From Bdellovibrionia bacterium (GTDB lineage Bacteria > Bdellovibrionota > Bdellovibrionia > Bdellovibrionales > JAGQZY01): a stretch of 64,000 bases of DNA. The position numbers and the translations under genes were made by a program. Below the pieces are notes generated by a model that did not search any database, was not told where the DNA came from, and worked only from the letters and a program-made list of their open reading frames with translations. The stretch covers positions 1 to 64,000 of the forward strand of contig JAUHWH010000011.1 of assembly GCA_030424715.1 (NCBI GenBank). Reading direction: 5' to 3'. Positions 6,132-57,697 of this stretch are shown here, piece by piece (within the stretch, counting starts at the first letter, position 1; the number at the start of each line of letters is the position of its first letter).

Positions 6132-6509
6132 TCAGCGGTGAAGAGAGAGGCAGGCCTCGGTCGTACCAGCAAGTACAATCTCTTGACCGGAGTCATCCAG
6201 ACAAGATGTGGCAAACCCTAGGGTGGCGTCTTCAAGAAACGCACAAGTGAGAATGGCCTGCTCCTTATTGCCAGCAGCGAGGGCTGCCTCAACCCTCTTG
6301 GGGCCACTCAAAAGAAACTGCCTTGTGCGACGATGACTCTCTTTGACTCTGTCCATTTCTTCGACAGAATTGAACTCGTATTCTTGCTCGACCGTCTCCC
6401 AAGAGAGACAAATAAGCTCTTGCAGCCTTTCTGTGGTCTCTGAATACTGGTATTGACCGTGACCCGGGGTCACTAGAGCCAAAAAGGAGAGAAAGAAAAA
6501 GAGTTTCAT
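6132..6509 (-). CDS. Small exported protein with four cysteines
   Basis: Of the long open frame only the last 125 codons look real: they start at MKLFFFLSF with a typical signal peptide cut around HGQ, preceded by AGGA at a suitable distance. The mature part is helical, acidic and carries four cysteines, suggesting disulphide-stabilised helices in the periplasm. The gene is divergent from the exported protein starting at 6765. Function is unknown. Confidence 0.65.
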   Translation of the reverse strand: MKLFFFLSFLALVTPGHGQYQYSETTERLQELICLSWETVEQEYEFNSVEEMDRVKESHRRTRQFLLSGPKRVEAALAAGNKEQAILTCAFLEDATLGFATSCLDDSGQEIVLAGTTEACLSLHR

Positions 6510-6764
6510 GGGAAAGATCCTGACAAAAATTGTTACCGACATTGAAGAAGATACATCGGTTTCCAACGAATATAAAGAGGTTAGAGGAAAGCATAGAGTT
6601 CTTACACGGTTGAGAACCAAAATTTCGACAGTAGAGCGATTCGAGGCCCCATGCAACCGCCCCCATTGATTGGCACAGATCTTCCAATACAAGTGAGCAG
6701 TGGAGCTGAAAAATCGTTTTCAGCCACTGCGGCGATAGACCCAAACGCACAACCGAGGTGCCCA

Positions 6765-46576: not shown

Positions 46577-47281
46577 ATGCAACAGTCATTTTTGCAGACC
46601 TCATTTCTCGTGGTCTTTTTAGTTGGAAATATCGCCTGGGCCCAGGTTGACGAAAGGGATATCCCACCTCCTCCGATGCCCGAGTATCTCAAACAGCATA
46701 ATAAACGACTGGGGATCAACAGCGATGCGATGGTGCCAACCCCTGCCGAACAACAACTTTCGGAAGGTGCTGCGCCCAAGGTTGAACCTTCGAGGGCCGA
46801 CAGCTCTGAATCTGTCGAGATGGCCAACCGTGAGCCACAGCAGGTCTCACAGCCAGCACAAGTGCAAGCTTCCGCACAACTTTCCCAGCCGAAAGCGCCG
46901 CAGGCGGTGGAGTCAGTGACTGAACCTGCGGCCCCAGCTCCTTTTGAGCGGGTCTCTGCTCCCACACCTGTCGAGTCACCAGATAGCCCCGAGAAAGTTA
47001 TGAAACCAAAAACCAATGTCCAAATCCCAAAGCCGGTCAAACAAGCCAAAACCCAGGAACCTGCTGTCAAAAAGCGTAAGGTGGCCACGTCGGTATTCAA
47101 GAGCGGAATGCACAAGTTCACCTCGGATTGTACGATGCGAGCAAAACCCAGCGCTGAGAGCGCGCCGAAAGGCTCTATTGGTAAAGGCCGTAAACTTTGG
47201 ATTGATCCCCACAACGAGGATTGGCACAAAGCCTATAAAAAATCAGGAACGGTTTACATCCCCGCGAACTGCCTTAAGTAG
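46577..47281 (+). CDS. Exported Pro/Ala/Glu-rich protein with C-terminal SH3-like domain
   Basis: 234 residues: a signal peptide (about 1-22), an unstructured linker of about 140 residues rich in Pro, Ala, Gln and Glu, and a C-terminal domain of about 60 residues (SDCTMRAKPSAESAPKGSIG, then RKLWIDPH) of bacterial SH3 (SH3b) type. One cysteine lies at each end of the domain, likely pairing. Such domains often bind peptidoglycan. ggagg precedes the ATG. Confidence 0.78.
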   Translation: MQQSFLQTSFLVVFLVGNIAWAQVDERDIPPPPMPEYLKQHNKRLGINSDAMVPTPAEQQLSEGAAPKVEPSRADSSESVEMANREPQQVSQPAQVQASAQLSQPKAPQAVESVTEPAAPAPFERVSAPTPVESPDSPEKVMKPKTNVQIPKPVKQAKTQEPAVKKRKVATSVFKSGMHKFTSDCTMRAKPSAESAPKGSIGKGRKLWIDPHNEDWHKAYKKSGTVYIPANCLK

Positions 47282-47432
47282 CGCGCTGTTCTCAAGCTTC
47301 GATCCTAGTCTTGGACGGCGCTCTAGGCGACCATATCTAGCTCGAGGTGATATTCCTATACGTGCCAGTAAAGTTCTTTGGCCAACGTTGTGGCCGCAAC
47401 GAAGCCTGCAATGACGGTGTCGCCCATCGTAC

Positions 47433-48878
47433 TTATTGTTTGGTTTTCTGAATAGAATTAACTAGTGACCACGCTGAAGATCGTTCACCGCTCAAGGTTC
47501 TGACTCGCCAGTGATATTTTTTTGCTGGCGCCAGGGGCTCTGTCAAAATAAAGTTGTTAGAACTCACATTGCGGGTGTACTCGACGTCTTTGAAATCTTT
47601 TGTGCTTGAGATTTGGATTTCGTAACCTCTAGCATCGGCCACACCTTTCCAGAGAAAGATGATAGGTTCGCCAGCCTTCTTATCAAAGGATATATACTGA
47701 CTCTCGTGCTCCGGAAACTCGAGAAGAGGTACTCCGATTGATGGCAGAATATCAACCTTAACAGTCATTGGAGTCTCGATAGAAGCGAGCTGCCTCTTGC
47801 TCTTGTCTTCGAAAAGCAACCGAAAGAACACCTCTTGCCCCTTAAATCTTTTGATTTCTCCTGACGTCATGGCTCCTGTAACCGACTTGTCCAACAGAAT
47901 TTTACTAAAATCTCGATCATTGCCCACTTGAAAACGATAGCCCACCCGCCCTCGTGGTTCTTCCCAATGGGCTGCGAATTTTAGACTTCTGAAGTCATTG
48001 GATTTTGAAAAAGACTCTTTGTGCACATACTGTTTGGACAAGCCTATGATTTTGGGGCTCTTAGGAGCTTTCTGTTTGACAGGAACTTCGATGCCTTCGG
48101 ACCGAAGGACTTTCTTCCACCGTGCTATTTGGACCTGAACCTGCGCTGTCACTTTGCGATCGATTTGCTCCTCGCTTACAAGACTTTTCTCTGTTACGTC
48201 GTAAAACTCCCAATCCTCGGAGACTTTCGACCGAGGCAAAGCCGCCGATGATAAATCTCTTTTTCCATCAGACTCCGTCGAGACTATCTTTTCAGGCTCT
48301 GATGAATCAGGTTTGGTAACAGTCACTGTTCCTTTACGAGAGACAATCTGACTCTTTACAGCGTTTTTCGGCTTGGATATGAGAAACTCGCCGCCAATTT
48401 CGCCCGAAACATCTCTCACCCGGCCTGAGACTCTGATCTTTATTTTTTTTCTTTTTTCAAACTTGGCTTGAAAGCTTCCGAAGCTTAGATCTATGGTATC
48501 TTCGCCGGCAACACTGGATACGCGTATAAGAGAGTTCTCCCCAACAACGAAACTCAAACCGTTAACAAACGACACTTTAGCCTCGGATCCCTCACCAACA
48601 AACAAATAATCTCCATTGGACAGAGATTGGTCCACTTCGGGGTCATTCCAAGAAAACGAGGAGAAATGCTTCCAGCGCACATCCTTAGCTGAAAACGTGA
48701 GCTTGGCAACCTGCTCCCCACGCTTGCTTTCATTCAAAAAATTGGTGACTAAATTAGGGTTAAAAAACAGGAATAAGGAAAACAGCAAGACCATACCAGC
48801 TACGAACAGCTGCAGCCGTTCCAATTTACTAAAATTGCTTAGAGAGCGAAGTTCTTCCACCCGTATTAATCGGTGCAT
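47433..48878 (-). CDS. Membrane-anchored FecR-domain protein with fibronectin-like C-terminus
   Basis: 481 residues: one membrane helix (about 25-45) with the rest periplasmic, a FecR domain (about 85-195; LSNGDYLFVGEGSEAKVSF, SLIRV), a charged linker, and two C-terminal beta domains with WEEPRGRVGYRFQV and KKYHWRVRTLSG of the fibronectin III type. FecR proteins commonly sense outer-membrane or surface events and control sigma factors. It is head to head (120 bp) with a SpoIIE-type phosphatase. An input role in the neighbouring switch is inferred from this position. Confidence 0.85.
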   Translation of the reverse strand: MHRLIRVEELRSLSNFSKLERLQLFVAGMVLLFSLFLFFNPNLVTNFLNESKRGEQVAKLTFSAKDVRWKHFSSFSWNDPEVDQSLSNGDYLFVGEGSEAKVSFVNGLSFVVGENSLIRVSSVAGEDTIDLSFGSFQAKFEKRKKIKIRVSGRVRDVSGEIGGEFLISKPKNAVKSQIVSRKGTVTVTKPDSSEPEKIVSTESDGKRDLSSAALPRSKVSEDWEFYDVTEKSLVSEEQIDRKVTAQVQVQIARWKKVLRSEGIEVPVKQKAPKSPKIIGLSKQYVHKESFSKSNDFRSLKFAAHWEEPRGRVGYRFQVGNDRDFSKILLDKSVTGAMTSGEIKRFKGQEVFFRLLFEDKSKRQLASIETPMTVKVDILPSIGVPLLEFPEHESQYISFDKKAGEPIIFLWKGVADARGYEIQISSTKDFKDVEYTRNVSSNNFILTEPLAPAKKYHWRVRTLSGERSSAWSLVNSIQKTKQ

Positions 48879-48998
48879 TTCGCTCCGTTCTCAACTGGTT
48901 GATGGTCCTAAATCTTACGACCTTCGGCTAACTCGAGAGATAGTAGTCAAACTCGGTTATTTCAGTGGGTTATACTTGAACAGCGAGGTCGATAAAAC

Positions 48999-50765
48999 AT
49001 GAAACTTTCCCTGCAAAAAAAGCTGCTTATTATCTTGATAGGTCTCCCCACTATAGCTGCGAGTCTTTACTCTGTTGTGGCCATCGATCTCTTCAAGTCT
49101 GACAAGCAAGCCTACGTCTACGAGAGCAACTCATCGATATCGAGAAGTCTCGCCCAACAGGTAAAAAACGAAATCGACAGTCATATCAATTCGGTAAGAT
49201 CTATCACAGTAGGGCTGAACCCAAAGACCTCCACTTTTTCTCAGTGGGCAAAAAAGCTGTTCCACTCAAATCGTAACCTCAGTCATATCGCCATCGTTGA
49301 CTTGATCGAAAAAAAAAGTATAGCAACCCTGTCGAAGCTAAGTGAAGTTGACAAAGAGTCATTGGATTTCGCGCAAATAGAGAATGGCACATTTAAGGTT
49401 TTTGGCGAAAACCAATTGCTCTTTACAATAAGTAACGATTTCTTGAAAAAGAAAAACTTGGTGGTCGTCACCGTTGTCTCGTCTAAAAATATTGAAAATT
49501 CGTTTACAGCTCCATCACCCTCCGCCAACTATTTAATCACTCGTTCTGGGAAAATGCTTTTTGGGTCTCTCGGCAACGACTACTCTTTCGAAAAATGGGA
49601 TCTGAGCAAAACCATAAACTTTGACCTCTCTTCCACCACAGATTTTTTATCGCCTCAAAGCGAGAAGCTGTTGATTTCAAATTCTCCGGTTTCGTATAGT
49701 GATTTGCATGTCGTCTCTATCATCGAAACATCAAAGGCGTTCAAAGCAGCTTCAGAACTTATTATACAGTCTATCATTTTTTTAATTTCCATAGTGGCTG
49801 CTTCTGTCTTGATCAGTTTTGTTGCTTCAAAAGGCCTTACCTCGAAGCTCAAACGCCTATTGGGTGCGACCAAGGAGATTGCCAAGGGGAACTACGCAAT
49901 CGCACCACTGCCCGCCTCAAATGATGAAATTGGGATTCTATCCAGTAGTTTTTCAACCATGGCCACGGAAATCGAGCAGCTCATGCTCGACAACATAGAA
50001 AAATCGAGAATGGAGACTGAGCTTAAAACAGCTCAAACCGTGCAAAAGACCCTGTTCCCTGCCGAAGAAGCCGACCTTGGTAAGATCGCCCTAAGTGGCT
50101 TTTACGAACCAGCCAGTGAATGTGGGGGTGACTGGTGGCACTACTCAGATCTAGGCGAGAAAATCGTCCTTTGGATCGGTGATGCGACTGGGCATGGTGC
50201 GCCCGCAGCTCTTATTACCAGTGCTGCAAAAGCTACATCGACCATCATTGAGATGAGGAACATCGTCTCTCCGGCTGAGATTATGGGCACCCTTAATCAT
50301 GCGATCCACGGTGCGGCCCAGGGCGAAATCTGCATGACCTTTTTCGTAGCCACTATTGATAAAGCCACCAATGAAATGGTTTACTGCAACGCCAGCCACG
50401 AAGCCCCTATCATTATTCCAAACACAGAATCATTGAGCCGAATGGATTTTTCTTTCTTACAAGACAATAATTCTCCGCGAATTGGTGAAAACCCCAAATC
50501 GACTTATAGTGAATCCAGTTATCAAATCAAGCCTCAAGAACACATCTTTTTTTACACCGATGGGATCACCGAACTTTATAACCCCACCGGCAAAATGTAC
50601 GGCGAGCGCAAGCTTGCAAAAGCCCTGGTTGGGGCCCATAACATGAAATCCTCTTTAAAGGCCTTCAAAGATTTTGTTCTCAAAGACCTGTATGAGTTTC
50701 GAGACGGGGAACCTCTACAAGATGATGTTACATTTTTTGTAATTAAAAGTGAGGAAAAAGCCTGA
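48999..50765 (+). CDS. Membrane HAMP-SpoIIE (PP2C-like) phosphatase, RsbU type
   Basis: 588 residues: membrane helix (about 7-28), a periplasmic sensor region (about 30-250), a second helix (about 253-276), HAMP linker (about 277-335), a coiled-coil (TELKTAQTVQKTLFP) and a SpoIIE/PP2C phosphatase domain with metal-binding motifs GGDWW, GDATGHG and FYTDGITE, then DDVTFFVI at the end. Such enzymes dephosphorylate STAS anti-sigma antagonists. A GHKL kinase-like protein and a STAS protein lie 6 kb downstream. Its stop is only four bases from the end of the convergent fibre gene. Confidence 0.93.
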   Translation: MKLSLQKKLLIILIGLPTIAASLYSVVAIDLFKSDKQAYVYESNSSISRSLAQQVKNEIDSHINSVRSITVGLNPKTSTFSQWAKKLFHSNRNLSHIAIVDLIEKKSIATLSKLSEVDKESLDFAQIENGTFKVFGENQLLFTISNDFLKKKNLVVVTVVSSKNIENSFTAPSPSANYLITRSGKMLFGSLGNDYSFEKWDLSKTINFDLSSTTDFLSPQSEKLLISNSPVSYSDLHVVSIIETSKAFKAASELIIQSIIFLISIVAASVLISFVASKGLTSKLKRLLGATKEIAKGNYAIAPLPASNDEIGILSSSFSTMATEIEQLMLDNIEKSRMETELKTAQTVQKTLFPAEEADLGKIALSGFYEPASECGGDWWHYSDLGEKIVLWIGDATGHGAPAALITSAAKATSTIIEMRNIVSPAEIMGTLNHAIHGAAQGEICMTFFVATIDKATNEMVYCNASHEAPIIIPNTESLSRMDFSFLQDNNSPRIGENPKSTYSESSYQIKPQEHIFFYTDGITELYNPTGKMYGERKLAKALVGAHNMKSSLKAFKDFVLKDLYEFRDGEPLQDDVTFFVIKSEEKA

Positions 50766-50769
50766 TCAC

Positions 50770-53700
50770 TTACTTGTCTTCTATTAGGCTTTCGACAAGA
50801 GCCTCGAGCTTTTTGACTCGTATTTTTAACTCTTTAATCTCACTGTCTTTCTCAGACTTTATCTTTGCAATTTGGCGATTCTGTTGATTATCCGTAGAGC
50901 TAATATTGAGGTAAACCTTACCGTTCGCCAAAAGCAAGCCCAAGGGTTGTCCGTCCAAGGTGCTCACCCGTCCATCATTGATGTTCACCTGAGAGCTGTC
51001 AAAGGTTACTTGACCCACAAGGGCTACAAGTACAGCGTTATCTTGATTACGAAGGTCGGAGTTACCGATGACACCCGGATCAGAAGAGACGATACCCAAT
51101 AGATTATCGCCCACAGAATAACGCCTCACTTTGCCAGTTCTTGGGTTTAGACTGACAAGATCACCACCATTGAGAGAAACGCCCTCAGCTTCAAAGTACT
51201 CCGCGTAATCAGCCCCAGTATTGAGTGTTGTTTCGGCAGAGATTTCACCACCCGCCGGCACAGCACCACAGGCACCATCGCTGCTCACACAAACACCACC
51301 ACCAGCACCAGCGGCATCGATATGCAACTTAGAAGCTGGCGTAGTTGTTCCAATCCCTACATCTCCATCTCGACTAATCCTCATTCTTTCAGCATCATTA
51401 GTTAAAAAACTAAAGTTATAATATTCATGCCCGTTAAGGTAATACGCCGAAGCTGCGGAATCGAAGCCTAATGTCAAACCGTCGGTTGCTCCATGACCAG
51501 AAGAGTTGTTGGTTAGCTTAATGTAATTTGATGTTTCTGCACCGTTACTGACGTGAAGCGAGGTGAGTGGGCCTGAGGTTCCTATACCAACATCTCCGCC
51601 ATTGAGAATGGTTATTGCTGGGCTGTTGTTTGTCTCAAGCACTAACGACTGAGCATCGTTCGTTCCGATGGTCACCGTAGACCCCGTTGTGTTGCCGCCA
51701 TTGGAGATATCACCACCAACACCCGTTGCCCATGACAAAACGCCACTGCCGTTAGTCTGAAGCACCTGTCCTGAGGTTCCATCGGCCGCAGGCAGAGTCC
51801 ACACGATATCAGATGTTACCGTTGCGGGAGATACAAAACCCACGTAATTAGAATCATCAGCATCATTGAGTCGCAATTGGTTGTCGATGGCGATGTCGCC
51901 GCTGGCGAGATTACCGGTGATGGCGTTGCCGATATTGAGAAGGTCGGTGGTGTCACTGCCAGGGTCTATACTGTCCCCGATAAAAATATTGCGATCACCG
52001 TTTACAATGCTAACACCCGCATTGTTACCAATCAGTACGTTGCGATCGCCGTTGGCACCAATCAGAACTCCGGCTCGGTGTCCCACTGCTACGTTGTAAG
52101 AGGCCGCATTGCTCAAGGCACCTTGCAAGGCTAGACGACCAACGGCCACGTTGTAGGCGCCCGTTAAACTGTTTTCCATGGCATCTGTACCAATAGCGGT
52201 ATTCTGCCCGCCCGTAGTAATTCGTTCGAGGGCGCTTCCTCCAATCGCGACGTTGCCGGCGCCAGAGCTGGCATTGGCCAAGGCAGAATATCCCATGGCT
52301 ACACTGCCCGGTGTAGTGAGATTTCTGCCGGCAAATCGTCCAATCCCAATATTGTAGGAACCAGTTGCGGAACCTAGAGCGTTATCTCCAATACCGACAT
52401 TATGAGAGGTGTTTGATGAACTCAAGGAACTCGTGCCTATGGCAACGTTTCCATAACCGATAAGATTTGCTGTTAGAGTGTCACGACCAATGCCAATATT
52501 AGAATAGCCCGTCGTAACAGATGCCCCTGAGTTTACCCCTAGAAAGTAGTTGTTGGCACCACCACCAGTGCTGGCATCACTGAGCTCACCAAGCGCGGTC
52601 GCCCCTGTGGCCCCTTGAGCTGTCCACGAAAGAACGCCACTTCCGTTAGTCTGTAGCACTTGTCCTGATGTTCCATCGGCCGCCGGCAGCTGCCACATGA
52701 CGTTGGCTAAAATACTGTCGGGCGCTCTGAAGCCCACATACTCTGGTACACCATCTGTCCCTGCATCGGGTGAAGCGGCTAGCTCTTCGAACTTAATCGA
52801 ACCGCCATCGCCGGCGGCCGTGCCCGCGGCTCCTGACAGGATTGAACCTTCGATATCCATCATTTCAATTGGGGCCGTCGTTCCGACACCAATTCTACCG
52901 TTAGCGGCAATTCTCATACGTTCCTGGGTACCTGCCGTGGCTGTAGTTTTAGTGTAAAAAATCAGATTTGATGACAGCCTGTTACCGCCAGCAGCTTCAA
53001 CAGCAGAGGTAATCTTAGAGCCATCTCGAGGAGTGACGTTCCATATACCATTAAAAATAATTTCACCAAGAATATCAGTAGCTTCAACATTTGCTGGTGC
53101 CCCTAGTGTTCCTCGTGCTCCTTTGAATTGAATGATAGGACTACTGCCTGTTGAGGTATGGAACAGGCTCAGGCCGTTACTCCCGCCTGAGGTCGCTAAA
53201 GAGAGTCGACGACTTGTCACTGTGGTTCCTATACCGACGTTACCTGAGTTGTCGATTCGTATACCTTCGTTGCCACCGTCATTACTTAAATAATTATTAT
53301 TAAGCCGAATATTCCCAGTCATCGCTACGGTACCGTCCGCGAGAAGGTCACCCGCCCCAGAACTAGCCCAACTAAGAACGCCACTGCCGTTGGTTTGTAG
53401 CACCTGCCCCGATGTTCCATCAGCAGCCGGTAGTTGCCACATGACGTTGGCTAAAATACTGTCAGGTGCTCTGAAGCCAACATACTCGGGCACGCCGTCA
53501 GAACCTGCGTCGGGGGATGCTGCTAGCTCTTCGAACATAATCGAACCACCATCGCCAGCCGCAGTGCCTGCTGCGCCGGATAAGATCGAGCCTTCTACGT
53601 CTAATTTTTCAGTCGGGTTGCTGGTTCCTATTCCAACGTCTCCGCCGGACTCCACTCTTAACTTTTCAGACCCATTGGTTGATACCGCCATAGTGTCGGC

Positions 53701-54564
53701 GCCTGGTGACCACAAACCAGTGTCGGCGTCTCCGTTAAAGGCGATGCTCGGAGTGGCTACAACGCCCGCGGCCAAACCATCGATACCGTTGTTTGAAAGA
53801 TTTAAGTCACCGGTCATGGCGACAGAACCATCAGCGGCAAAACCTCCGCCACCAGCCACGATCATGTCGGTCCAACCACCGTTTTGATAGGCTTCGAACT
53901 TATTGCTGGTTGAATTGTAGCGCATCATGCCGTCCTCAGGAGTGCCCGGCCGCTGAGCCGTTGTTCCTTGGGGAATAATGATCGCGTCGGTCCCTGTAAC
54001 ATCTAAAGTGGCCGCTGGGTTACTCACGCCAATACCGATGCGACCCGATACATATTGTAAATATTCAGAGGCTTGTTTACCGGCGAGCTGACTGGCGTCC
54101 ACCGCATAAGGCACCGACTGCACGTCTAAGGTTTGGGTGATCGTCTCAGGCCCCGTTCCGTCATCAAAGGTTATTAAGACCTTTCGCTTAGCACCCGCGG
54201 AGGGAGTGAAGGTTGTTCCGGTGTCACAATTTAAAGCAGATATCGTTGAGGAACTGTTACTAAAAACTTGGGCTAGAGTGCTCGTCTGCTGAAAGCCCCC
54301 ACCTGTTCTTGTTCCGGCACCAATTGTTAGGCTGAAGAAACCACTGGATGCCGACATATTCAAATTTTGGGTCTCTTCAAAAAGGATACAGGCTTCTGCT
54401 CCGGGAGAAATAATCCGAATGGTAAAGTCAACCGACGCAGACGTTACAGGATTATTCGAGGGGTCAAAGATCGTCCCTTGCAGAGTCAAACCCTGAGGAG
54501 AGTAACTGGCGATCACAAATGATGGCAAGAAAACCAAAAGCATATTTGCAATAAATGTTTTCAT
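50770..54564 (-). CDS. Modular trimeric fibre/adhesin (mosaic-adhesive-trimer type)
   Basis: 1264 residues: signal peptide (1-19), the same N-terminal domain as the left-edge fibre (GLTLQGTIFDPSNNP, SPGAEACILFEE), tail-fibre modules ending in [14 protein letters not shown] three times, a YadA-head-like stretch of short repeats (NVAIGxxAL, about 700-870), a DYAEYFEAEG to GIVSSDPGVIGN domain seen at the end of many bacterial fibres, and a C-terminal coiled coil (KELKIRVKKLEALVESL). It would form a trimeric fibre at the cell surface. Its start overlaps the stop of a lipoprotein gene (ATGA). A sigma-28-like promoter precedes the pair. Confidence 0.9.
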   Translation of the reverse strand: MKTFIANMLLVFLPSFVIASYSPQGLTLQGTIFDPSNNPVTSASVDFTIRIISPGAEACILFEETQNLNMSASSGFFSLTIGAGTRTGGGFQQTSTLAQVFSNSSSTISALNCDTGTTFTPSAGAKRKVLITFDDGTGPETITQTLDVQSVPYAVDASQLAGKQASEYLQYVSGRIGIGVSNPAATLDVTGTDAIIIPQGTTAQRPGTPEDGMMRYNSTSNKFEAYQNGGWTDMIVAGGGGFAADGSVAMTGDLNLSNNGIDGLAAGVVATPSIAFNGDADTGLWSPGADTMAVSTNGSEKLRVESGGDVGIGTSNPTEKLDVEGSILSGAAGTAAGDGGSIMFEELAASPDAGSDGVPEYVGFRAPDSILANVMWQLPAADGTSGQVLQTNGSGVLSWASSGAGDLLADGTVAMTGNIRLNNNYLSNDGGNEGIRIDNSGNVGIGTTVTSRRLSLATSGGSNGLSLFHTSTGSSPIIQFKGARGTLGAPANVEATDILGEIIFNGIWNVTPRDGSKITSAVEAAGGNRLSSNLIFYTKTTATAGTQERMRIAANGRIGVGTTAPIEMMDIEGSILSGAAGTAAGDGGSIKFEELAASPDAGTDGVPEYVGFRAPDSILANVMWQLPAADGTSGQVLQTNGSGVLSWTAQGATGATALGELSDASTGGGANNYFLGVNSGASVTTGYSNIGIGRDTLTANLIGYGNVAIGTSSLSSSNTSHNVGIGDNALGSATGSYNIGIGRFAGRNLTTPGSVAMGYSALANASSGAGNVAIGGSALERITTGGQNTAIGTDAMENSLTGAYNVAVGRLALQGALSNAASYNVAVGHRAGVLIGANGDRNVLIGNNAGVSIVNGDRNIFIGDSIDPGSDTTDLLNIGNAITGNLASGDIAIDNQLRLNDADDSNYVGFVSPATVTSDIVWTLPAADGTSGQVLQTNGSGVLSWATGVGGDISNGGNTTGSTVTIGTNDAQSLVLETNNSPAITILNGGDVGIGTSGPLTSLHVSNGAETSNYIKLTNNSSGHGATDGLTLGFDSAASAYYLNGHEYYNFSFLTNDAERMRISRDGDVGIGTTTPASKLHIDAAGAGGGVCVSSDGACGAVPAGGEISAETTLNTGADYAEYFEAEGVSLNGGDLVSLNPRTGKVRRYSVGDNLLGIVSSDPGVIGNSDLRNQDNAVLVALVGQVTFDSSQVNINDGRVSTLDGQPLGLLLANGKVYLNISSTDNQQNRQIAKIKSEKDSEIKELKIRVKKLEALVESLIEDK
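52618..53606 (-). repeat. Two near-identical ~80-residue fibre modules
   Basis: Coordinates span two copies, about 52618-52863 and 53363-53606, which encode nearly the same module (GSILSGAAGTAAGDGGSI, then EYVGFRAPDSILANVMWQL, then [14 protein letters not shown]). The DNA copies are also close. A shorter third copy (about 51727-51810) and related stretches in the left-edge gene (about 238-360) share the last part. Confidence 0.85.
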
Positions 54565-54851
54565 CTCACCAACCCCACGGTTGTTAAATCAATTGTGTAA
54601 CCGCCAGCGGTTGATTGCTGAGAGTTGCCGTTGCCGCCCAATGACAAATTTAAAATATAGCCACCGGAAGTGGACACATTCACCCGGCCGGCCGAAAGAA
54701 TTTGGACATTGTCTCGAGTAGAAGATGGAGTTTCAGGATTGGGTTCGGCGATAGAGTCCCCAGGGGTGAAGTCACCCTTCAGGTCGTTGGCGACACCACA
54801 TCCCGAGGTTGCCAAAAATAAAATAAATCCCAAGAACTTTAGACTTGCCAC
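54561..54851 (-). CDS. Small lipoprotein coupled to the fibre gene
   Basis: 96 residues starting at GTG, ten bases after AAGGAG; the longer in-frame start would place that Shine-Dalgarno site inside the gene. A lipobox (FLATSGC) anchors the product. The mature part is small, with a disordered linker and two similar beta strands (STSGGYILNLSLGG and STAGGYTIDLTTVG). Its stop overlaps the fibre start (ATGA), so the two are made together. It may anchor or assemble the fibre; this is inferred from coupling only. Confidence 0.75.
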   Translation of the reverse strand: MASLKFLGFILFLATSGCGVANDLKGDFTPGDSIAEPNPETPSSTRDNVQILSAGRVNVSTSGGYILNLSLGGNGNSQQSTAGGYTIDLTTVGLVR

Positions 54852-54884
54852 TTTGTAATAACTCCTTACAATCACCCAATTTTC

Positions 54885-54911
54885 TTATCGGACAGATCGC
54901 TGTTCACTTTA
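54885..54911 (-). promoter_or_regulatory. Sigma-28 (FliA)-like promoter of the lipoprotein-fibre operon
   Basis: On the minus strand the sequence reads TAAAGTGA, 11 bp, TCCGATAA, against the consensus TAAAGTTT, 11 bp, GCCGATAA (6/8 and 7/8 matches, exact spacing). Initiation near 54877 would leave a leader of about 26 bases to the GTG start at 54851 that contains the AAGGAG ribosome site. Confidence 0.7.
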
Positions 54912-54966
54912 CAATAAATTGGAGAAGTCACTCGTTTTGATACATGTTTTTATAGAACGATTTGGC

Positions 54967-56160
54967 TTAAAATTCGTAACCCAGTCTCAATTCGATATTT
55001 GAGAAGAAAAGAGAATGATCAAGACGGTCCCGCGCGAGGGTTACCGTATTGATTCGGGTCGTCTGATAGCTAAAATATTGCCCGTAGGAAAAGGCTCCCA
55101 GACGCCAACTCCTGTTTTTGAAGCGATAGATGGCTCCAAGGGATCCATCAAAAGCGAAGGACGAACCGATATCAAAAAGGTCACCTGATGAAACCACGTG
55201 CTGGTATCGTAAAAAGACCTCGTATTCCCAGCGACGGGATTGAATCAGCAGCGCGCGCCCACCTAGCGACCCCATGATGACTTCATTGGTTCGTATACTG
55301 GCTTGATTGACCCCTACTTGAACCACGTATGGCACCAGGTGATACTGAACCCCACCAATCACGCCAAATAGAGTTTCAAGTCCAAACAACTCGGTTTCAA
55401 AAGACTCGGGAGAGTAAGAGGCCTCAACGCCAAGGTTGTCCCACGAATACCCACCTTGCAGAACCGACACGGCCGCTCCCGATGAAACCTCACCTGGTGA
55501 GGACTTTGCGGAAACATTCAGTTCAAGGTAAGGGATGATCTCATACCAAAACTTTAAGTACTGAGAGGGTAAACTCAAACTTTGAAACGAAAAATCGCCC
55601 TGCTTATAGGTTATATAGTTGAACCCTGTCCCCGCCCAAAACCCAAACTTCTTTTTGTAAAACGGTGACGTTTCAAGGCGGCTTTCACCCACAATTTTTA
55701 AATCGTCTTTGAGCACCTTGATAATTGGCACATAAGGAGTTATTGAACCCCTATACTCCACGCTTATTGGCAAATGGACGACTCCATAAGGCAGATCTAC
55801 AGTGAAAGAAAAAAAGCCTTTACCATCGGCGATCACCGTAGAGTCTCTATCTTTGATGATATCTTTTTTAGACAACTCTGAGGTCTCAATGTGGCCTTCT
55901 TTGAAAAATGGGATCTTTACCCCAAGGGTGACCCGAGCTCCCTTAAAGGTCACTCCCTGTATAACAATCTGGTGACGCTTGCCTGGCAAAGGTTTTACAA
56001 ACTCGGGGCGATACCAGCGCACCGGCACCACCGAAAGTTTCAGCGGAGGTCGAGACTCTACCAAAGTCTGTGCATTGACCGTTGAGACTAAAAAGAGTCC
56101 CTGCAAAAAACAAGAGACGATCTTGAACACAAAATTTCTAACCCATGGGATGATACTCAT
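54967..56160 (-). CDS. Outer-membrane barrel with an N-terminal Ig-like domain
   Basis: 397 residues starting at MSIIPWVRNFVFKIV: signal peptide (cleavage after VNAQ), an all-beta domain (about 45-150; VIQGVTFKGARVTLGVKIP, GKGFFSFTVDLPYGV) and a barrel of long amphipathic strands to the terminal ELRLGYEF. It lies upstream of the lipoprotein-fibre pair on the same strand (gap about 115 bp with its own promoter for the pair). It might be a secretion or anchoring partner for the fibre; nothing but position and topology supports this. Confidence 0.78.
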   Translation of the reverse strand: MSIIPWVRNFVFKIVSCFLQGLFLVSTVNAQTLVESRPPLKLSVVPVRWYRPEFVKPLPGKRHQIVIQGVTFKGARVTLGVKIPFFKEGHIETSELSKKDIIKDRDSTVIADGKGFFSFTVDLPYGVVHLPISVEYRGSITPYVPIIKVLKDDLKIVGESRLETSPFYKKKFGFWAGTGFNYITYKQGDFSFQSLSLPSQYLKFWYEIIPYLELNVSAKSSPGEVSSGAAVSVLQGGYSWDNLGVEASYSPESFETELFGLETLFGVIGGVQYHLVPYVVQVGVNQASIRTNEVIMGSLGGRALLIQSRRWEYEVFLRYQHVVSSGDLFDIGSSFAFDGSLGAIYRFKNRSWRLGAFSYGQYFSYQTTRINTVTLARDRLDHSLFFSNIELRLGYEF

Positions 56161-56335
56161 TAATCTCAATCTTATCTCACCTGCGACAAGAGCTAAAGGT
56201 AAAAGTCTTGTTGTCGTCCTTCCCATTTTTTAATCACCTGTTGCAATTTCTGATGCCCTTTCCTAGACGAGAAGCCATGCTTTTGGTGGCTCAGAGAACT
56301 GGACTTCAATCAAAAAATAGAGATAAAATAGAGCA

Positions 56336-57199
56336 GTGAAACTGTTTTCTCGATATCCGATGAGTATGATCGATTTGCCCGAGTCGCTTCTTGAAGCTGT
56401 CTCCGACACCGAACTCATTGACTACGACCAATCTCTGAACTTGACCTCGCTTGACTCCTCCCCCTACCCGATTGTCATCGGAAAAGAAACCCCCGTCGAA
56501 GCGATTATAGAACTCCTTTCAAACACAAGGTTCGAACACTTTGTTCAAGAAGATCATGGTCATTTTTTTTATAATCTCATCTTAGCGGCCATCATGCAAA
56601 AACACTCGAAAACTATTTCGACAAAGCCTTTGCGGTCGGTACTCACCACTGGCTACTCTTCGATGCGGCGAATGGTACTGCCCTTTAATTGCAGCCTCGA
56701 CAAAAAAAGCATCCTAAAGCATTTGGAAGTCTATCTAGAAAGGCACAAGTTAAGCGCGATATCTGAAGGTGTCTTAACGATTGCCAGTGAGTTTATATTA
56801 AATGCTCTTTTTCACGCCCCTGTTGATAGCGCAAACCAGAGACTCTTTTCTAAGCTCGCTCGTCACGAATATGTCGAGCTTCCTGACGAACAGAACGCCA
56901 ATATTTTTATAGGGCACAACCAAACGACCTTTGTGATTGGCTGCCAGGACCCCTTTGGCTCCGTTGACAAAGAAATAGTCTTTAAGCTGCTCAATCGCGC
57001 CTATGGGCAAACAAAAGCGGAAATCAATACAGGACAGTCGTTTGGACTGGGCCTCAAGTCTGCCATCGACAACAGTAGTGGCCTTTATCTTCTCGTTGAA
57101 AAGTCTAAAAAGACCACGATTTATTGCACCTTCCCTACCGAAGCCGGCATGAGAAAAGTGATTTCAATGTCAAAAAATATTCATATCAAGTTTTACTAA
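56336..57199 (+). CDS. GHKL ATPase, RsbW-like serine kinase candidate
   Basis: 287 residues, soluble. The C-terminal half has GHKL elements: N-box E152-xxx-N156 (SEFILNALFHA), G1 box D205-xx-G208 (CQDPFGS) and G2 box SFGLGL (236-240). The N-terminal half (1-130) is not recognised. Anti-sigma factor kinases of the RsbW/SpoIIAB group have this ATPase fold and phosphorylate STAS partners; the next gene, 12 bp on, is exactly such a partner. The start (GTG or the inner ATG) is not certain. Confidence 0.75.
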   Translation: MKLFSRYPMSMIDLPESLLEAVSDTELIDYDQSLNLTSLDSSPYPIVIGKETPVEAIIELLSNTRFEHFVQEDHGHFFYNLILAAIMQKHSKTISTKPLRSVLTTGYSSMRRMVLPFNCSLDKKSILKHLEVYLERHKLSAISEGVLTIASEFILNALFHAPVDSANQRLFSKLARHEYVELPDEQNANIFIGHNQTTFVIGCQDPFGSVDKEIVFKLLNRAYGQTKAEINTGQSFGLGLKSAIDNSSGLYLLVEKSKKTTIYCTFPTEAGMRKVISMSKNIHIKFY

Positions 57200-57211
57200 A
57201 AGGACCATCAC

Positions 57212-57697
57212 ATGACCGACGACAACACAATATGCCATTTAACGTTAGAGAGTAATTTAGACGAAACGACTCAGCTGTCATGCCAACCGGCAGAACAACA
57301 TGAAACACTTGTCGTTGATTTTGAGAAAGTAAAACTGATCAACTCTACCGGAATCGGTATCTGGATCAACTTTATCACTGCTTTGATCGAACAGTCTAAC
57401 ATCAATAAAGTGATTTTTAGAAATGCTCGCCGAATGGTCATCAATCAAATTAACAGCGTTAAGGACTTTTTACCTGCCATTGGAACTGTGGAGTCCTTCT
57501 ACCTCCCTCTTTATTGCGAACGATGCAGTAAACAGTTTAATCAACGTCTTAAAACAAGTGAGCTTGATGTTGAAACAGTGAAAAACCTGGACAATCTTGC
57601 CTTAGAAATTGACTGCGACCAGTTCCCCGATTGTCGAAGTGAAATTGAGATTGACACTCTTCCGGGCAAGTATCTTGCCTTCTTGAAACCGACCTAA
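57212..57697 (+). CDS. STAS-domain anti-sigma antagonist with a Cys-rich tail
   Basis: 161 residues: a STAS domain (about 1-100) with the switch loop VDFEKVKLINSTGIGIWIN, where S45/T46 sits at the phosphorylation site of SpoIIAA/RsbV. The last 60 residues are unusual for the family and contain CERC plus two more cysteines (DCDQFPDC), a possible zinc site. aaaggacc precedes the ATG. It follows the kinase candidate by 12 bp and completes a phosphatase-kinase-antagonist set with the gene at 48999. Confidence 0.85.
   Translation: MTDDNTICHLTLESNLDETTQLSCQPAEQHETLVVDFEKVKLINSTGIGIWINFITALIEQSNINKVIFRNARRMVINQINSVKDFLPAIGTVESFYLPLYCERCSKQFNQRLKTSELDVETVKNLDNLALEIDCDQFPDCRSEIEIDTLPGKYLAFLKPT

Follow-up and report, generated by a model that had tools for sequence, protein, structure and literature searches.

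A partner-switching module and a MAT fibre cassette in one accessory block of a Bdellovibrionia bacterium: a possible envelope-spanning system

How Bdellovibrio-type predators convert contact at the cell surface into an intracellular decision is an open question, and it is raised in concrete form by a locus in a relative of predatory Bdellovibrio, a Bdellovibrionia bacterium of which the first 64,000 nucleotides of contig JAUHWH010000011.1 (the window) were analysed. The initial annotation described a complete partner-switching module wrapped around a fibre adhesin locus, and the question is whether the genes of the switch and those of the fibre belong together. The reading that we favour, with a probability of roughly 0.55, is that the locus couples a fibre-display cassette to an accessory copy of an envelope-spanning partner-switching system. 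The gene set, its motifs and conservation, the gene fusions and the presence or absence of the block are observed directly in the sequences.

Gene order and boundaries of the block

The ORF map places all seven genes of the locus, intact, exactly where the initial annotation had put them, and the key residues of the switch proteins are conserved, which bears out the description of a complete module around the fibre locus. The features are as follows.

46577..57697, no strand: whole accessory block (h46577 and the seven-gene locus), ~11 kb, absent as a unit from the sister species
47433..48878, minus strand: FecR-type protein, 481 aa (BLAST to relatives, Ig/fn3 matches, predicted anchor)
48879..48998, no strand: intergenic region between the divergent FecR and phosphatase genes (ORF map; 34 of 42 loci share the arrangement)
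48999..50765, plus strand: membrane phosphatase with Cache-like sensor, HAMP and SpoIIE/PP2C domains, 588 aa (profile matches, catalytic motifs)
50770..54564, minus strand: MAT fibre with Peptidase_G2 intramolecular chaperone domain, 1264 aa (Pfam/NCBIfam profiles)
54561..54875, minus strand: small lipoprotein, 104 aa, start-stop coupled to the fibre gene (ATGA overlap, lipobox SGC)
54967..56226, minus strand: predicted outer-membrane barrel with N-terminal Ig-like domain (predicted structure, fold search, family alignment)
56227..56335, no strand: intergenic region between the divergent barrel-lipoprotein-fibre and GHKL-STAS units (ORF map)
56336..57199, plus strand: putative GHKL kinase, SpoIIAB-like fold with an extra N-terminal domain, 287 aa (invariant residues, fold)
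57212..57697, plus strand: STAS protein with candidate phospho-site S45 and Cys-rich tail, 161 aa (alignment, fold)

The sister species (G001) carries the flanking genes on one contig, with match ends at 6490 for waaA and at 6567 for the K-channel gene, and 46577-57697 is missing as a unit between them. The block is therefore accessory, and the sister species provides a natural experiment. The gene h46577 was rejected as a member of the module, its relatives being located away from the switch loci examined. Inspection of the block ends for signs of insertion gave 8-bp chance repeats only, and the promoters and terminators predicted (19 found against 13.0, sd 3.9, and 12 against 11.5, in shuffled sequences) are uninformative.

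Proteins of the switch, the fibre and the barrel

The phosphatase matches the HAMP (1.4e-6) and SpoIIE (4.7e-33; 115 bits against a cut-off of 25) profiles and carries the catalytic motifs GGDWW, GDATGHG and DDVTF, as aligned to Rv1364c and SiaA. In the phosphatase phylogeny it forms a long branch, and AU tests reject neither one barrel-linked clade (p-AU 0.37) nor one family clade (p-AU 0.37); with regard to a single origin of the barrel link and kinship to the phosphatase of another genus (G002/G004), the tree is compatible with either clade.

The GHKL protein has no Pfam or NCBIfam match of its own and the STAS protein has weak ones only, as do the GHKL and STAS alignments in a profile search of solved structures, and the identity of both was settled by their predicted folds, for which the best matches are SpoIIAB (TM 0.74-0.79 on target) and SpoIIAA respectively. 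The N-, G1- and G2-box residues E152, N156, D205, G237 and G239 are invariant among 14 GHKL relatives. S45 is likewise invariant in 16 STAS relatives while the adjacent position may be T, V, C, S, I, L, F or P, so that, of the S45/T46 pair put forward by the initial annotation, S45 stands as the candidate phospho-site and T46 is rejected. As judged from conserved catalytic and phospho-site positions, a partner-switching set of the SpoIIE/SpoIIAB/SpoIIAA type is apparently complete and intact. A joined GHKL-STAS model, read through the in-frame TAA, reached a pTM of 0.71, a value that is no proof of an interface.

The claim that the locus encodes no sigma factor holds for all of its ORFs, and no third partner, whether sigma factor or other kinase target, was found in it. 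The region-3 sigma factors of the genome read as RpoD, RpoH and FliA-like only, with no SigB/SigF-like member seen among them.

The fibre is, by its domains, a member of the mosaic adhesive trimer (MAT) family, a published family of Bdellovibrio adhesins (PMC10769870): the MAT N-terminal domain lies behind a signal peptide (NCBIfam Bdello_MAT_N, 137 bits against a cut-off of 60), and a Peptidase_G2 self-cleaving chaperone domain is also present. The ATGA at 54561-54564 overlaps the stop of the lipoprotein gene with the start of the fibre gene, and small lipoproteins in a like role occur at five other loci (L163, L184, L185, L187, L188).

The FecR-type protein consists of an N-terminal hydrophobic anchor, a FecR-like domain and a C-terminal Ig/fn3-like domain. 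It does not itself reach PF04773 in Pfam, which equally placed relatives match, one of them above the cut-off (L067, 28.4 bits against 24); by BLAST it matches the FecR proteins of module A at 3e-7 and 2e-6. The barrel, which probably starts at 56160 according to the family alignment, is predicted to form a ~10-stranded C-terminal beta-barrel after its Ig-like domain (mean pLDDT 83), and its best PDB matches are the outer-membrane barrels OpcA, Pla and OmpT, a likeness by fold only. Window proteins served as seeds for the FecR and barrel profiles, which makes the E-values of these proteins circular, and conclusions on both families rest on BLAST, Pfam and loci added later. Eight loci encode FecR and barrel as a single fused polypeptide of ~760-890 aa, six of them added after the profiles were made; the fusion at L185 matches Pfam FecR at 7.4e-5 and OMP_b-brl at 1.6e-3. 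Because of these fusions, the two proteins are probably functional partners that act together.

Recurrence across the order

That relatives keep the gene set had been named at the outset as a test of the proposal, and FecR, phosphatase, kinase and STAS do form a module that is found repeatedly across the order, so that the neighbourhood lies far beyond chance. The FecR gene is divergently adjacent to the phosphatase gene in 34/42 loci, which together with the FecR-barrel fusions supports the suggestion of an envelope input through FecR. A second, fibre-less copy of the FecR/phosphatase-GHKL-STAS module exists in the window genome (L040) and another in the sister species (L039). As many modules lack any fibre or barrel gene in their vicinity, the switch does not serve fibres exclusively.

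Among the 25 best barrels of the order, 16 are encoded next to a phosphatase gene, in 12 genera and three families, which suggests that the barrel partners the switch in addition to the fibre. The combination of small lipoprotein, barrel and MAT is found in three families, as lipoprotein-barrel-MAT (L188, family f10) and as lipoprotein-FecR/barrel-MAT (L185, family f4), and in G002/G004 the genes for STAS, FecR, phosphatase, barrel, MAT and small lipoprotein are clustered, this MAT being the sole one of G002. Within 6 kb, six MAT-phosphatase pairs were observed where 0.50 were expected (P 1.4e-5) and six MAT-barrel pairs where 0.59 were expected (P 3.6e-5), or P 1.7e-4 and 3.7e-4 with G002/G004 counted once; MAT genes thus lie near a phosphatase or barrel gene about tenfold more often than expected by chance. 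In the open-access papers searched, no description of such a system in Bdellovibrio came to light. The barrel-switch association, the FecR-barrel fusions, the recurrence of lipoprotein, barrel and MAT, the clustering of MAT with phosphatase or barrel and the absence of the block from the sister species are new here.

A possible mechanism, its rivals and related systems

On the favoured reading, lipoprotein, barrel and MAT fibre would form an outer-membrane display unit, and the FecR protein would span the periplasm from its inner-membrane anchor to the barrel. The neighbouring HAMP-SpoIIE phosphatase would dephosphorylate the STAS protein at S45 and the GHKL kinase would rephosphorylate it, the phosphorylation state determining whether the kinase binds STAS or another protein. 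The state of barrel and fibre would most likely be sensed through FecR and set the activity of the phosphatase, though the reverse, a switch that controls display, is also possible. These physical contacts, the direction of signalling, the output and any role in predation or prey commitment are inferred. A bolder version, held only tentatively, is a new class of envelope-spanning signalling in which a prey-binding fibre held by the barrel acts through the FecR arm (in some species anchor and barrel are the two ends of one polypeptide) directly on a phosphatase that flips the switch, so that an engaged fibre would bring about predator commitment with no sigma factor dedicated to the task. The block may be the means by which such predators perceive or regulate contact with prey, and the locus points to a conserved candidate route by which an adhesin could signal to the cytoplasm, S45 being the candidate residue and FecR-barrel the candidate contact. 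If true, partner switching would extend to trans-envelope input and a FecR protein would gain an output other than a sigma factor.

The module might instead be a switch of the usual kind whose target is encoded elsewhere (FliA, an ECF factor or a phosphorelay), the fibre cassette merely lying between FecR/phosphatase and GHKL/STAS in a variable island. Fibre-less modules are indeed the commoner kind, in other families a PAS-Hpt-GHKL kinase, a CheY-like protein and a DUF4388 regulator follow on from the module, and MAT genes are numerous, with 13 matches in the window genome; this account is nevertheless rather doubtful in view of the tenfold excess of MAT co-location, the barrel-phosphatase pairing, the FecR-barrel fusions and a block that is present or absent as one.

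It is improbable that two devices simply adjoin, FecR, phosphatase and barrel acting as an envelope sensor and GHKL-STAS as a separate pathway. By BLAST the window GHKL and STAS proteins are closest to those of L035/L037 and more like the phosphatase-less L035 pair than module A, which makes cross-talk or another pairing possible, and several genomes have FecR-phosphatase-barrel without GHKL-STAS (L059, L060, L087, L198-L202). Against such a division, most GHKL-bearing modules keep phosphatase, GHKL and STAS contiguous, and L094 unites FecR, phosphatase, GHKL, STAS and barrel within 7 kb. That the phosphatase or kinase has targets other than STAS, the GHKL protein being an inactive or structural relative, might be argued from its divergence from every public profile, yet it is very hard to reconcile with invariant N-box and G-box residues, SpoIIAB as best fold match and an invariant STAS serine.

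The favoured reading finds partial parallels in known systems. Like SpoIIE-SpoIIAB-SpoIIAA and RsbU-RsbW-RsbV of Bacillus, the locus combines a PP2C phosphatase, a GHKL kinase and a STAS protein with a conserved serine, and its GHKL and STAS folds match SpoIIAB/SpoIIAA best; unlike them, it has a FecR protein and an outer-membrane barrel as partners and no sigma factor, its GHKL protein has an extra N-terminal domain and its STAS protein a C-terminal extension. FecA-FecR-FecI similarly pairs an outer-membrane barrel with an inner-membrane-anchored FecR-type protein, but the window barrel is small, ~10-stranded by prediction and not a TonB-dependent transporter, and the output protein would be a phosphatase rather than an ECF sigma factor, for which the locus has no gene. 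The fibre resembles the MATs of Bdellovibrio bacteriovorus (PMC10769870) in its N-domain, long modular build and self-cleaving C-terminal chaperone, though with Peptidase_G2 in place of the S74 chaperone domain; the window MAT is linked to a signalling switch, a link of which the searched parts of that paper say nothing, and they mention no operon, lipoprotein or barrel.

SiaABCD of Pseudomonas aeruginosa is a Ser/Thr switch that controls attachment (PMC7647112, PMC8457831) and shares with the locus a HAMP-PP2C membrane phosphatase of the SiaA type. Membership was rejected: the phosphatase matches the SiaA family at 68.7 bits (E 3.8e-19) against an equivalog cut-off of 700 bits, kinase and STAS match neither the SiaB nor the SiaC family, and the locus has no diguanylate cyclase. 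The SypE-SypA pair of Vibrio fischeri (PMC4517449) is also a STAS-based switch and controls attachment and biofilm rather than a sigma factor; unlike the window locus, it has kinase and phosphatase joined in the response regulator SypE, and neither FecR nor barrel.

Layout of the locus and its switch proteins

The locus comprises seven genes, for which the ORF map returned exactly the positions of the initial annotation:

47433-48878, minus: FecR-type protein
48999-50765, plus: HAMP-SpoIIE phosphatase
50770-54564, minus: mosaic adhesive trimer (MAT) fibre
54561-54875, minus: lipoprotein, with an ATGA overlap with the fibre start
54967-56226, minus: barrel, start probably codon 23 (56160)
56336-57199, plus: GHKL protein
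57212-57697, plus: STAS protein

The FecR and phosphatase genes diverge across 120 bp, and barrel-lipoprotein-fibre diverges from GHKL-STAS across 109 bp; this orientation and spacing make four transcription units likely, and promoter scans of the locus gave no usable information on them.

By domain profiles the phosphatase matches SpoIIE (4.7e-33), HAMP (1.4e-6) and, weakly, Cache; among solved structures, Rv1364c and SiaA are the closest to it in sequence, and alignment with these shows GGDWW, GDATGHG and DDVTF all to be present. No database profile matches the GHKL protein, for which the best fold match to the predicted structure (pLDDT 87) is SpoIIAB and in which E152, N156, D205, G237 and G239 are invariant across 14 relatives. 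The predicted STAS structure matches SpoIIAA. Phosphorylation had been proposed at S45/T46, and a comparison of 16 relatives retains S45, which is invariant, but not T46, since position 46 varies. A Cys-rich C-terminal stretch (CxxC and further Cys), which looks metal-binding from its sequence, is found in the STAS proteins of the window, L035, L038, L039, L040 and L088 (L numbers denote loci fetched from genomes of the order), and its Cys are absent from most other families.

The phosphatase is too divergent for phylogenetic placement. The GHKL-STAS pair is nearer to that of L035, which is without a phosphatase, so that cross-talk with paralogues is possible. This phosphatase-less pair is kept in both species of the genus (L035:8860-10231; L038:8534-9910), in a tetrapyrrole-biosynthesis-like neighbourhood, and single GHKL genes without a partner lie in L034 and L037.

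In the sister species (genome G001) pyrF, waaA, K-channel, cysS and a homologue of 60666 follow one another, the waaA and K-channel matches being just 77 bp apart; the block 46577-57697, including the unrelated gene h46577, is absent from this site, and the best matches elsewhere in G001 to the phosphatase, GHKL protein and barrel are weak or from other modules. Gain and loss of the block are indistinguishable because the family's other genomes have cysS and waaA on separate contigs.

The FecR protein and the barrel

The window FecR protein falls under the Pfam detection level; BLAST relates it to the FecR proteins of module A, the fibre-less copies of the switch in the window genome and the sister species (3e-7, 2e-6), and PF04773 is found at the equivalent position in other loci, in one case above the cut-off. 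A strong N-terminal hydrophobic segment is present in 37/38 FecR-type proteins and an AxA-like cleavage motif in only five of them. The sister-species FecR (L039:3102-6779; 1225 aa) carries a long array of ~25-residue repeats, such as GALDKDTLAALKAAGFSETTLAQL, which are missing in the window protein.

The barrel is predicted (pLDDT 83) to have ~10 strands after an Ig-like domain, and its nearest structures, OpcA, Pla and OmpT, show a likeness of fold only that is uninformative on function. When 141 genomes were searched for the barrel family, 25 proteins matched strongly (E below 1e-67), 16 of which, from 12 genera and three families, adjoin a phosphatase gene (the window, L057, L058, L059, L060, L086, L087, L088, L090, L094, L095, L198, L199, L200, L201 and L202); one further barrel (L102) adjoins a STAS gene. 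FecR and barrel form a single gene in eight loci (L097, L098, L184, L185, L193, L194, L195 and L196), six of them fetched after the FecR and barrel profiles had been built, and the L185 fusion is independently matched by Pfam FecR (7.4e-5) and OMP_b-brl (1.6e-3). The barrel thus belongs with FecR and the phosphatase. In L184 ~440 residues, with an Ig-like match among them, separate the FecR-like part from the barrel, a linker that could span the periplasm. On a crude motif test we predict that the hydrophobic anchor escapes cleavage, which would place a single fusion chain in both membranes.

Shorter relatives of the barrel (L099, L104, L107, L109) adjoin very large lipoproteins (1165-2153 aa), not MAT fibres, and the family may therefore serve several kinds of surface protein.

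Recurrence of the fibre cassette

The window fibre has a MAT N-domain (137 bits against a cut-off of 60) and a Peptidase_G2 chaperone domain; S74 and non-S74 MAT members are described on the predator surface (PMC10769870). Lipoprotein, barrel and MAT genes stand in a single row in L188 (family f10), lipoprotein-FecR/barrel-MAT in L185 (f4), and MAT diverges from FecR/barrel in L194 and, with a lipoprotein, in L184. Genomes G002 and G004, of another genus in the same family, have STAS-FecR divergent from phosphatase-barrel; the latter pair converges with a giant MAT gene that has a small lipoprotein upstream. MAT diverges from FecR-phosphatase in L182 and lies within several kb in L183 and L092, and in G003 the phosphatase converges with an ORF bearing Peptidase_S74 (2.2e-14).

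Against random placement in 21 genomes, with gene numbers read off search tables, pairs within 6 kb number six for MAT-phosphatase (0.50 expected, P 1.4e-5) and six for MAT-barrel (0.59 expected, P 3.6e-5), or P 1.7e-4 and 3.7e-4 with G002/G004 counted once, in a test made post hoc, the pattern having already been seen.

The MAT gene of G002, its single match in 4.5 Mb, has two in-frame stops in the N-domain region (C11:116885-117361, L163), reflecting either decay or sequencing error; its G004 counterpart is open. The window contains a further MAT N-domain close to its start (1117-1605, minus). Several other MAT genes of the window genome (L159, L161) are cut short by contig ends, in some cases within collagen-like Gly-X-Y repeats, and assembly breaks may therefore distort its count of 13 MAT matches.

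Proposed signal relay, output and known systems

The most economical reading, for which we infer contacts, direction and output, is a relay in which fibre and barrel would signal through FecR to the phosphatase, which would dephosphorylate STAS at S45 and so change the partner held by GHKL. Partner switching is already known, as are MAT fibres and FecR signalling, and switches of this kind acting on attachment include SiaABC (PMC7647112) and SypA (PMC4517449); in the literature searched we found no report of a barrel combined with a FecR arm and a phosphatase, of FecR-barrel fusions or of the recurring link to MAT fibres. The system is a variant of partner switching. SiaABCD and FecA-FecR-FecI signalling were both considered and rejected, the defining features of each having been sought and not found.

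A sigma-70 region 3 occurs in three proteins of the window genome, interpreted as RpoD, RpoH and FliA; within this set no SigB/SigF type is seen.

Conservation of the gene set in relatives, on which the initial annotation had staked its module, is borne out for the switch genes, FecR being divergently adjacent in 34/42 full-length phosphatase loci. Bdellovibrio bacteriovorus kdesi and Bdellovibrio sp. qaytius are among the named carriers of related phosphatases. Both module A copies, L040 (contig C13 of the window genome) and L039, have FecR divergent from a contiguous phosphatase-GHKL-STAS operon; in L067, L068 and L078 STAS follows the phosphatase with no GHKL gene between. Module A adjoins, in both species, a gene that by eye only is acyl-CoA-ligase-like (L040:5852-7501; L039:9975-11624).

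Further genes extend the operon in several families, encoding a PAS-Hpt-GHKL kinase, a CheY-like protein and a response regulator with DUF4388, and this extension suggests a phosphorelay as one candidate output path. Flanks with this kinase, CheY-like protein and response regulator, the last with DUF4388 in some, lie at L070:11763-16074, L089:12173-16611 and L067:4682-13279.
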